Shown here piece by piece: positions 28,984 to 31,598 of a stretch of DNA of 32,079 nt. Source of the stretch: Candidatus Poribacteria bacterium (GTDB taxonomy: Bacteria; Poribacteria; WGA-4E; WGA-3G); NCBI GenBank assembly GCA_021295735.1, contig JAGWBU010000010.1, forward strand, positions 13,129-45,207. Reading direction: 5' to 3'. The notes beneath the pieces were generated by a model that had not been told where the DNA came from, searched no databases, and worked only from the letters and a program-made list of their open reading frames with translations. Within the stretch, counting starts at the first letter, position 1; each line of letters begins with the position of its first letter. Both the position numbers and the translations under genes were made by a program.

Positions 28984-29931
28984 ATGAAGCGTATAAAAAT
29001 TCCCGGAGTTGACCAAGAAATTTCACAACTGATTCTGGGAACTATGATGTATTCACCTGCAAGTTTCGACCACAGCACCGAGATGCTTGATACATTCTTT
29101 GAAGTAGGTGGAAATGCTTTGGACACGGCGCACATCTATGGAGGCGGGAATAGTCAAAAGTTAATCGGTCTTTGGATGCAGGAACGTGGAAATAGAGACG
29201 AGGTATTCTTAATAGATAAAGGAGGACACCCACAAGGCGGTGTTCCACGCCGCGTTTCACCAGAATACGTTAAACAAGACCTTGACGAAAATCTCGTACG
29301 TCTCCAGACAGATTATATTGATCTTTATATGCTTCACAGAGACGATGTAGAGATTCCGGTTAGCACAATAATTGATTATTTGAATGAAGAGATAGATGCA
29401 GGGCGTATCCGAGCCATCGCCGCTTCTAACTGGGAACCCCAGCGTATTATTGAAGCAAATACATACGCCGAAGAACACGGGTTAAGCGGGTTCGTTGCAT
29501 GTAGTAACAACATCAGCCTCGCGGTCCCAATGGAACCGATGTGGGGTGGATGTGTTTGCGTTGATGATGACGCACGCCGTTGGCATGTGGAGAATCAATT
29601 TCCGTTAATGCCATGGTCATCCCAAGCACGTGGGTTCTTCAGCGGTGCATTTACGCCTGAAAACAGAGATAACGGAGATATGGTGCGTGTCTATTACAAC
29701 GAAGATAACTTTGAAAGGCTGGCACGCGCAAAACAATTAGGTGAAAAATACGGCTTTTCCGCCATTCAAGTCTCGCTTGCATATTGCATTAATCTTCCCT
29801 TTCCGATTTTTCCGATTGTTGGTCCAGCTAATTTAGTAGAGATGAAATCTTCCCTCGGCGCATTGAATCTTCAACTCTCCCACGATGAAATGGCGTGGCT
29901 AAACCTCAAAACAGAACAGACAAAGTTATAG
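28984..29931 (+). CDS. Aldo/keto reductase family protein
   Basis: 315 residues with a full catalytic set: Asp47 and Tyr52 in ALDTAHIYGGG, Lys79 in FLIDKGGH and His118 in LYMLHRDD. The cofactor end is seen in FPIFPIVGPANLVEMKSSLG. Unlike the gene at 227-1123, the tyrosine is in its usual place, so this is probably an active NADPH-dependent reductase or dehydrogenase in the cytosol, of the Tas/YajO-like branch. GAGGGAA lies about 9 nt before the ATG. It follows the Gfo/Idh gene by 139 nt with its own promoter, a neighbourhood pointing to sugar or polyol metabolism. Confidence 0.92.
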   Translation: MKRIKIPGVDQEISQLILGTMMYSPASFDHSTEMLDTFFEVGGNALDTAHIYGGGNSQKLIGLWMQERGNRDEVFLIDKGGHPQGGVPRRVSPEYVKQDLDENLVRLQTDYIDLYMLHRDDVEIPVSTIIDYLNEEIDAGRIRAIAASNWEPQRIIEANTYAEEHGLSGFVACSNNISLAVPMEPMWGGCVCVDDDARRWHVENQFPLMPWSSQARGFFSGAFTPENRDNGDMVRVYYNEDNFERLARAKQLGEKYGFSAIQVSLAYCINLPFPIFPIVGPANLVEMKSSLGALNLQLSHDEMAWLNLKTEQTKL

Positions 29932-30008: not shown

Positions 30009-30134
30009 ATGGAAACAAAAATTTTTTACGCACTACTAATCCTTCAGTTTCTTTTTCCTTTCGGTGTTCTACATAATGTGTTTGGGCAAGAAAGCTGAGG
30101 CGCCTGAAGCAATCCCGCAATCCCACGTGGCGGG
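30009..30134 (+). other. Signal-peptide leader in frame with the barrel gene, containing two in-frame TGA codons
   Basis: An ATG at 30009 opens a frame coding for METKIFYALLILQFLFPFGV and then LHNVFGQES, a good Sec signal peptide with likely cleavage after VFG. The frame then meets TGA at 30096-30098 and, after GGC GCC, TGA at 30105-30107, and runs on without any shift as SNPAIPRGG into the ORF at 30135. A 7-bp stem (112-118 with 130-136 of 30000) lies 4 nt after the second TGA. TGA is used as a true stop elsewhere in the window (for example 21947-21949). Either the TGA codons are read as selenocysteine, or the gene is broken. No strong Shine-Dalgarno site is seen before 30009. Confidence 0.5.
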
Positions 30135-31115
30135 ATGGGTGGAGTCAGTTTGACTTCAGATAGCAAAAGATTTCAAGCCTCTTTCAGCACGATGCGGTGG
30201 TTTGATGCACAAGGTGGACATCTTGAAGATGAAGGAGTTTTCATTAGTCTAAACGGAAACCGAAAAATAGACAAAGTCCCAGAGCATAGACATCATGTCG
30301 TCTTAAACGTTTATCGCTTTGATGTTGGGTTAAAATATCTACTCGGTTCTCAATGGATATTGGAAGCAAACCTCCCTTATGAATCCAAAGTTCAAGAAGC
30401 AACTATTGAGAAGATTGACGGTGTTGAATATACTCAAGAACAATGGGAAGCGATTGAAGAGAATGGGTTTATCCATCATCGCAATGAAACCTACACCGGT
30501 CTAACAGATTCAGAAGTTTTTCTTGGATATTATAGACTGGGTGTTTTGGCAGAGGGTGATTATTTTATGGGGCGTATCGGAACGTCGATTCCATTTGGAA
30601 AAACTGAGGATGACCCGTGGAAACTCGGAGAGAAGGGAGAGGAGCATCTACATATCCAATTTGGGACTGGAACTTTCAACCCTATCTTAGACCTACACTA
30701 TAATCTGCCTATCTATAAGGGGTTAGCATCTCATACCAGTGTCCGCGCAAAATTACCTTTCTACGAGAACAGCAAAACATATCGTGGTTCAAATGAACTT
30801 ACATATTCAGCAGGATTGAACTATCGCCTGAATAAATGGTTTTCTTTCCGATCAGGTTATCTTGGGATATATCAATCTTTTGCGCATTGGGATGGAGGAA
30901 TAGACAAAAATACTGGACTTCTTTTTGGCATGGCATCGCTCGGCACATCTATTAAAACCCCATTCAATGTCCCATTATCACTTTCGTTTTTGTTACCATT
31001 GCATCAAAAAACACTATATGATGATAGTGACGCGTTTGTTGATGGTAAATATGAAGAAAGCGATGCGTTTGAATTTGGTCCGCTTGTCTCCTTAACAGCT
31101 TTATATTCATTTTAG
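30135..31115 (+). CDS. Outer-membrane beta-barrel protein (transporter-like); start probably at 30009
   Basis: 326 residues from the first ATG, without a signal peptide of its own. The composition is that of a beta-barrel: alternating polar and hydrophobic strands with aromatic girdles (YLLGSQWILEANLPYES, DSEVFLGYYRLGVL, LNYRLNKWFSFRSGYLGIYQ) and a final LVSLTALYSF ending in Phe, the signal for outer-membrane assembly. The type resembles uncharacterised transporter or phenol-degradation MetA-like barrels. Because a barrel needs export, the real start is likely the signal peptide at 30009, in the same frame but split off by two TGA codons. The body shows no other stop or frame shift, so if it is a pseudogene it is a young one. 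Confidence 0.7.
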   Translation: MGGVSLTSDSKRFQASFSTMRWFDAQGGHLEDEGVFISLNGNRKIDKVPEHRHHVVLNVYRFDVGLKYLLGSQWILEANLPYESKVQEATIEKIDGVEYTQEQWEAIEENGFIHHRNETYTGLTDSEVFLGYYRLGVLAEGDYFMGRIGTSIPFGKTEDDPWKLGEKGEEHLHIQFGTGTFNPILDLHYNLPIYKGLASHTSVRAKLPFYENSKTYRGSNELTYSAGLNYRLNKWFSFRSGYLGIYQSFAHWDGGIDKNTGLLFGMASLGTSIKTPFNVPLSLSFLLPLHQKTLYDDSDAFVDGKYEESDAFEFGPLVSLTALYSF

Positions 31116-31166: not shown

Positions 31167-31598
31167 ATGGTAACACACAGCAGAGGGGTACAAATTTTTC
31201 AGGGTGTTATTAGCATTATTTTGGGCGTTGTCAGTATCCTCTTAGCTATTGTGTTGCAACGATCCGCATATCCGACTATGACTCTTATCACTTTTTTTAT
31301 AGTTGGGTTGACCCTTATTTTTTCTGGAGACTACCTCATAAACCCTTTTGGTATGCCTGTAAATGCCTTCAAACAACAACTTCTCAGTGAGTTGTGCCTC
31401 ATCGCTTATGGTGCTTTTTATGTGAATATTGGGATATCTCGACTGCTACAACCGCTCTTGATATTAAACATCTCACAGATATTACACCCTGTTTGGATAC
31501 GGCGGGGTATAAGCAGCATAGGCATTCTCTTAATCATCGGTGGTATTTACGGCATCTTAAGTTTGCTAAAAGACTTGCACACAGAGGCCTCTGAATAA
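31167..31598 (+). CDS. Small integral membrane protein of unknown function
   Basis: 143 residues with about four hydrophobic segments (near 10-28, 37-55, 72-90 and 112-132), separated by short polar loops, so it should sit in the cytoplasmic membrane. No catalytic motif is visible and I do not recognise the family. The ATG at 31167 has only a weak AAGG about 15 nt upstream. It lies 51 nt after the barrel gene on the same strand and is convergent with the cupin gene, 30 nt away. The hydrophobic pattern supports a real gene. Confidence 0.6.
   Translation: MVTHSRGVQIFQGVISIILGVVSILLAIVLQRSAYPTMTLITFFIVGLTLIFSGDYLINPFGMPVNAFKQQLLSELCLIAYGAFYVNIGISRLLQPLLILNISQILHPVWIRRGISSIGILLIIGGIYGILSLLKDLHTEASE

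Follow-up and report, generated by a model that had tools for sequence, protein, structure and literature searches.

A barrel gene with two in-frame TGA codons

On the forward strand of the window (the whole stretch of DNA analyzed, 32,079 nucleotides), positions 30009 to 31115 hold a putative double-selenocysteine outer-membrane barrel gene, encoding 368 residues when TGA is read as selenocysteine (Sec). The frame opens with an ATG at 30009, the next in-frame stop ends at 31115, and the only internal stops are the TGA codons at 30096 to 30098 (codon 30) and 30105 to 30107 (codon 33), both on the forward strand and together forming TGA GGC GCC TGA (30096 to 30107). The read-through product is METKIFYALLILQFLFPFGVLHNVFGQES-U-GA-U-SNPAIPR, with the pair in the context ESUGAUSNPAIPR directly after a signal peptide (residues 1 to 26, 30009 to 30086, forward strand) that is recognizable in the sequence and forms a helix at residues 2 to 23 of the structural model. 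Cleavage, placed by eye, would fall before Q27, making U30 the fourth residue of the mature protein. A sequence-only reading of the window had described a signal peptide from 30009 in frame with the barrel open reading frame (ORF), with the TGAs at 30096 and 30105 as the sole interruptions, and both features are as described.

The window gene shows no frameshift across 1.1 kb, and its dN/dS against six relatives, calculated from the motif onward with the TGA codons omitted, is 0.10 to 0.23. Standard gene callers would tend to place the start of a gene like this one past the TGAs, with loss of the signal peptide and the motif, as happens in the mechanical ORF from 30135.

The barrel gene is preceded by what appears to be an aldo/keto reductase gene (28984 to 29931, forward strand) and followed by a gene for an apparent small membrane protein (31167 to 31598, forward strand; weak DUF981 match, 19.9 bits versus a cut-off of 29). 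Members of these two clusters occur, besides the window, at 18 and 15, respectively, of 38 loci whose barrel gene carries both TGAs (UGAU loci).

Conservation of the TGA pair in Poribacteria

When we searched the read-through protein against 145 genomes, relatives were found in 66. The full-length matches contain one or two in-frame TGAs, with the single exception of one in G025 that has three, and the matches lacking an in-frame TGA are pieces without the N-terminus plus two distant hits. The best 80 of 115 confirmed relatives in named genome records are all Poribacteria (80/80), and a plasmid collection searched by tblastn gave no match to the family.

Once genes sharing the same first 600 nt from the motif had been dereplicated, 98 distinct motif-bearing genes remained (51 and 47 from two genome collections), a count restricted by construction to those with U or Cys at each of the two motif positions. 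The motif is UGAUSNP in 70 genes, UGAUNNP in 1, CPAUSNP in 26, and CSAUSNP in 1; both TGAs are thus present in 71 of the 98 and Cys followed by TGA in 27. The second TGA is found in all 98, although the motif search also permitted Cys at that position. Full-length genes account for 96, the other two being N-terminal pieces of less than 250 residues (L060 and L063). Fifteen further rows lacking the motif comprise seven fragments of family genes and eight distant homologues (L151 to L158).

Four families of a single order have the TGA pair at identical codons, and it is also seen in OX639992.1 and OY282374.1, assemblies titled as single chromosomes; such recurrence in independent assemblies argues against base-call error. 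A second family member, again with UGAUSNP, is encoded in the window's own genome (L051, 4894 to 5991; G000:C195). Broken copies do exist within the family: L060, L063, and L068, in G068, G010, and G019, are frameshifted or fragmented. One metagenome-assembled copy (L092) contains a third in-frame TGA about codon 33 after the first UGA (UGA1), where relatives have Trp, and this is probably a nonsense change or a base error.

TGA also terminates members of the same family. In 16 of the 96 full-length genes it is the true stop, located just after the last strand (YSF-TGA and the like), and L051 is one of these, with its stop 327 codons on. The genetic code is therefore unchanged, which agrees with the earlier proposal that TGA is a normal stop elsewhere and that a general code change is unlikely.

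Cysteine at the proposed selenocysteine positions

In a tree of 96 genes, the 26 CPAU genes form one clade with support of 100/100, while the one CSAU gene (L057) falls within the UGAU genes and shares a genome with its UGAU sister L056, to which it is 87% identical. It is in this clade and in L057 that Cys replaces the first TGA. The tree, whose midpoint root serves for drawing only, requires two label changes at the first motif position; because the branches around them carry UGAU, these changes are most simply read as Sec giving way to Cys twice.

More distant relatives extend this pattern to both positions. In a distant family from a different phylum (G375 and relatives), the signal peptide is followed by CCAHCGGNMP in 12 of 12 sequences inspected, and internal stops are absent from its 44 matches, found in 42 of 77 genomes from this phylum. 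By hhalign, the CxxC cysteines of this family fall on both Sec positions (probability 95.3, E 2.4e-8); because this alignment is anchored close to the signal peptide, the pairing of residues at that point is likely rather than certain. Among the distant homologues in Poribacteria genomes, L156 has CxxC, and the motif was not seen in L151 to L155, L157, or L158. The sequence-only reading had expected Cys at the TGA positions of homologs, and it is found there, at the first position in 27 of 98 genes and at both in the distant CxxC family; the “CxxC-SNP-like” motif that it proposed for related barrels was right in kind, the distant Cys relatives reading CCAHCGGNMP.

Two hairpins downstream of the TGA pair

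Two predicted RNA hairpins follow the pair on the forward strand. Hairpin 1 (30112 to 30136) has a 7-bp stem, ATCCCGC/GCGGGAT, an 11-nt loop, and an energy of -11.3 kcal/mol in the window gene. Hairpin 2 (30140 to 30158), our favored SECIS candidate, has the stem TGGAGTC/GACTTCA and the loop AGTTT and lies 39 nt after the second TGA. In 46 dereplicated genes less than 85% identical, compared with synonymous codon shuffles, excess RNA stability peaks in the 48-nt window that opens five codons downstream of UGA1 (mean z -2.23, t -17.5), and beyond codon 17 the lowest window has a z of -0.83. Excess codon identity is highest at codons 11 to 20 (0.42), with values of 0.16 to 0.35 in neighboring windows and 0.0 to 0.15 elsewhere. 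The excess is weaker over the 51 nt from the second UGA (UGA2): mean z is -0.93 in the 71 UGAU genes (12.7% at p<=0.05) and -1.59 in 25 CPAU genes (40% at p<=0.05), and z is 0.0 in the window gene.

Within hairpin 2, 94.8% of cells in 29 distinct rows are paired, a value reached by 0 of 500 shuffles (mean, 92.1). Covariation counts, which may be inflated by relatedness, give both-side changes in hairpin 2 at 4 pairs (reached by 17/500 shuffles) and in 9 cells (0/500), and in hairpin 1 they are higher for an inner stem closing a 3-nt loop (20 cells, 0/500) than for the outer stem of the sequence-only reading (9 cells, 2/500). Inner and outer stems are paired in 83 to 85% of cells, and the inner-stem alternative is supported in many relatives. 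The second loop position of hairpin 2 is G in 42 of 43 aligned rows; L059 is gapped there and has a different hairpin.

According to the accessible text of PMC13188914, the model of the bacterial SECIS (bSECIS) has a stem of 4 to 16 bp, a loop of 3 to 9 nt, an energy of <=-7.5 kcal/mol, a distance of 16 to 37 nt from UGA to the apical loop, and a G in the first two loop positions, mostly as N1-G-[G/U]-N-N2 with N1-N2 pairing. Hairpin 2 conforms in stem and loop size (7 bp closing AGUUU or 8 bp closing GUU), in loop pattern (AGUUU in the window), and in energy (-8.1 kcal/mol for 30138 to 30160), but not in spacing, being 39 nt from UGA2 and 48 nt from UGA1 versus the 16 to 37 nt of the model. 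Hairpin 1 as folded has a loop of 11 nt, larger than the model allows. We set aside hairpin 1 alone as the main SECIS candidate because its loop is variable, and 11 nt long in the window gene, while hairpin 2 is strongly conserved at synonymous sites. Of the earlier suggestion that the stem-loop at 30112 to 30136 may be a bSECIS element, the 7-bp stem stands, whereas hairpin 2 is the more probable and better conserved element. On this comparative sequence evidence, we favor hairpin 2 over hairpin 1 as the SelB-binding hairpin.

Possible hairpins after the UGA of selD were read in 27 cases from 30 loci (26 TGA, 1 TGT), each as the best of many positions and with no control. In the selD gene of G083 (L222), TGATGCA-AGTTT-TGCATCA lies 32 nt after the UGA, with the same pentaloop as barrel hairpin 2. 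Six of seven selD genes of family f4 have an AGUU loop 17 nt on as their best hairpin, but in the window's own genome the selD loop differs, being CCG or TCCGG and located about 15 nt from the UGA.

Selenocysteine machinery and tRNA-Sec

The window's own genome encodes selA (608 bits; cut-off, 268), selB (344 bits; cut-off, 242), and selD (372 bits; cut-off, 125), the last of which has one in-frame TGA of its own in the context KCAGUASKLAP. We detected selD in 61 of 70 genomes, with one TGA in 60 of the 61. A tRNA-Sec-like pattern is present in 66 of 82 genomes, including the window's own, and the strict pattern had no match in the other 16. Intact tRNA-Sec genes, scoring 73 to 78 bits with the Rfam model, were found in seven relatives (L195, L191, L182, G003, G018, G002, and G021). 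With the same model, no tRNA-Sec was found in G004, G011, G032, and G038 (150 of 247 to 463 candidates scored in each); these are four of the seven family f1 genomes missed by the pattern, and the other three have an Rfam tRNA-Sec.

The tRNA-Sec of the window's own assembly is located just 3' of selB (G000:C204:24041-24106; L007, L159 4042 to 4107, L200). Its 5' third is replaced by about 100 nt of unrelated sequence, and both flanks are syntenic with relatives in which the 5' third is intact. Owing to the replacement of the 5' acceptor strand and much of the D arm, it scores 38 bits, below the gathering score of 47. It is not called by ARAGORN, and the missing 5' part was not found elsewhere in the assembly at up to 2 mismatches. 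The assembly is a draft of 230 contigs with an estimated completeness of 93.5%, which makes a local misassembly of the tRNA-Sec plausible. The Sec genes sought in the same genome are thus present for selA, selB, and selD, but the sole selC found is truncated at its 5' end.

Reading of the interrupted frame

We assign a probability of about 0.9 to the reading that the window gene is intact and encodes an exported outer-membrane beta-barrel channel with selenocysteine inserted at both UGAs. A decayed gene or a sequencing error, kept as a remaining option by the sequence-only reading, would likewise present one frame with two stops, and the family does have genuinely broken copies elsewhere (fragments in G010, G019, and G068). 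However, the same TGA codons are kept in independent assemblies from four families of one order, including OX639992.1 and OY282374.1, and a dN/dS of 0.10 to 0.23 with no frameshift over 1.1 kb is at odds with decay, so that a pseudogene or base-call error is scarcely credible. The related argument that a chance pair of nonsense mutations is improbable gains from the fact that these codons are TGA in dozens of diverged homologues, and again from the dN/dS. Very improbable, too, is that UGA stands for an ordinary amino acid throughout, or is read through with Trp or some other residue: an open frame alone does not tell which residue is inserted, but TGA is a real stop in 16 of 96 genes, Cys is aligned in relatives, and selA, selB, and selD are present. 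It is also very hard to sustain that the barrel is translated from the internal ATG at 30135 with the upstream part unused. This start does give a mechanical ORF of 326 amino acids, and ATG stands at that codon in 15 of 25 CPAU genes as well; yet only 3 of 71 UGAU genes have ATG there (mostly it is Ile), the product would be without a signal peptide, and UGAU genes retain ESUGAUSNP together with a signal-peptide-like start.

A different question is whether the family encodes selenoproteins while this particular strain has freshly lost its tRNA-Sec, leaving the window copy untranslatable. The single tRNA-Sec copy found, with its 5' third replaced in otherwise kept synteny and no 5' part elsewhere in the assembly (up to 2 mismatches), points in that direction. 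Against it, selD retains its in-frame TGA, and selA, selB, and two barrel genes are intact, as in a living system, and local misassembly is plausible in a draft of this kind (230 contigs, 93.5% complete). We consider such a loss improbable.

Predicted barrel fold

The beta-barrel domain spans residues 55 to 368 (30171 to 31112, forward strand). From a 21-sequence alignment with Sec replaced by Cys, AlphaFold2 predicts a barrel of 13 strand segments, compared with the 12 strands of the COG4313 channel fold (mean pLDDT 75.5, pTM 0.73), for which the best Foldseek matches in the PDB are FapF (5o67, E 2.5e-11) and a COG4313 channel (4rl8, E 4.1e-9), with TM scores of about 0.5 by query length and 0.63 to 0.73 by target. 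The model thus suggests that the window protein is a FapF/COG4313-like barrel. By sequence, neither the open part nor the read-through protein matches a Pfam family, NCBIfam has no model that matches the window protein, and a profile search of the PDB gave 0 hits for the window family. PF13557 is matched by 7 of 21 members (best, 2.8e-5), the window protein not among them. Weak matches of other members, to OMP_myx_plus (4/21, best E 0.0043) and to several barrel families, were not used.

Both Sec/Cys positions are invariant in the 21-row alignment, as are His 71, 93, 95, 156, 157, 213, and 215. The N-terminal segment is modeled with low confidence, residues 17 to 34 and 42 to 46 falling below pLDDT 50. 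In the solved COG4313 channel, the first ~14 residues lie inside the barrel and partly occlude it, as described in the accessible text of PMC4493636. The UxxU of the window protein is at the same sequence place as this occluding segment, in the low-confidence region of the model.

Gene neighborhoods of the family

The neighbors of the window gene show no link to metals. At the CPAU loci, a 146-residue Cys-containing protein is encoded upstream of the barrel in 23 of 24 cases (L126, 7379 to 7819; L125, 2828 to 3268), with no Pfam match for the L125 copy and no NCBIfam match for the L126 copy. Then come, among the same 24 loci, a YHS-domain protein (16 loci) and an outer-membrane efflux protein (16), a CusB-like adaptor with heavy-metal-binding domains (14), and a CusA-type pump (11, limited by the 7-kb flank); these families were scanned on representatives only, the YHS match falls slightly short of the Pfam cut-off, and the CusA piece is truncated where the locus ends. 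At six other CPAU loci a YtkA-like gene takes the place of the YHS gene.

One UGAU locus, L069 (G019), contains the 146-residue gene and a YtkA-like gene in a neighborhood otherwise of the CPAU type, from which the metal or redox setting may not be limited to the CxxU form. The distant homologue L156 adjoins genes for a ResA/TlpA-like thioredoxin and a small cytochrome-c-like protein (weak matches) as well as His-rich proteins. From these surroundings, and from the CPAU paralogue in cus-type heavy-metal efflux operons, we infer a soft-metal or redox role.

Proposed decoding and function

Decoding of both UGAs as Sec would give a mature N-terminus of QES-U-G-A-U-SNP. SelB carrying Sec-tRNA-Sec would be recruited by the hairpins just downstream, chiefly by hairpin 2 with its N-G-U-N-N loop, and UGA would still terminate translation normally elsewhere, including at the ends of sister genes. 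In the exported protein, the N-terminal segment could sit within the barrel and occlude it, like that of the solved COG4313 channel, and its UxxU, which is CxxU or CxxC in relatives, might bind a soft metal such as Cu(I) or cycle between diselenide and diselenol. Selenocysteine is costly to the cell.

That this occluding UxxU segment gates or guards the channel through a soft metal or redox chemistry is a proposal to which we give somewhat less than even odds. An alternative, tentative but to be taken seriously, is that the barrel is a channel that takes up a nutrient or a hydrophobic compound, with a purely structural UxxU pair. COG4313 channels have been implicated in the uptake of hydrophobic molecules (accessible text of PMC4493636), and the absence of a metal link among the window gene's neighbors fits this as well. 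It sits less easily with the retention of a costly Sec at both positions, where Cys is the only replacement seen, with the paralogue in metal-efflux operons, or with the neighbors of the distant Cys relative L156, which include a ResA-like thioredoxin, a small cytochrome-c-like protein, and His-rich proteins. The gating proposal can be carried further, to a soft-metal- or redox-gated channel with a diselenide plug in its lumen, decoded from two UGAs at a 9-nt spacing through a SECIS of two tandem hairpins with its SelB-binding loop outside the accepted distance, and forming a lineage trait of sponge-symbiotic Poribacteria; as a whole, this combination appears less likely than not.

If both UGAs are indeed decoded, a double-Sec outer-membrane channel family would be added to the bacterial selenoproteome, and the finding would suggest that a largely uncultured phylum of sponge symbionts uses selenium at the cell surface. 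The locus would also provide a natural case, with two UGAs and two hairpins, for how far from the UGA a bacterial SECIS acts, and the paralogue in metal-efflux operons gives the family a testable job.

Comparison with known systems

In the accessible part of a 2026 review (PMC13188914), the table of 119 prokaryotic selenoprotein families and subfamilies names no such double-Sec barrel family. We found no earlier description of the window family in the literature searched, with most subscription journals and preprints outside its scope. The same accessible list does include another outer-membrane barrel, the GSU2204-family MtrB/PioB (NF041027), but with one Sec and no Sec motif, whereas the window family has two; none of 21 window-family members matches the NF041027 model up to E 0.1. 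The FCYXU type of TonB-dependent receptor (NF049945) has its Sec in a CxxU motif (accessible texts of PMC13188914 and PMC12013277). It is, however, a TonB receptor with one Sec, and the 21 members gave no NCBIfam match to such a model. The UxxU arrangement itself is shared with Prx-like proteins (PF00578, one to two Sec), a metal-binding protein (NF041115), and the FmdB family (TIGR02605), the latter two with two Sec; these are not listed as barrels in the accessible part of PMC13188914, and window-family members match none of them. The distant Cys relative L156 matches PF13557 (31 bits versus a cut-off of 22), whereas the window protein matches no Pfam family, and by Foldseek the window protein has its barrel fold in common with the COG4313/Phenol_MetA_deg channels and FapF.
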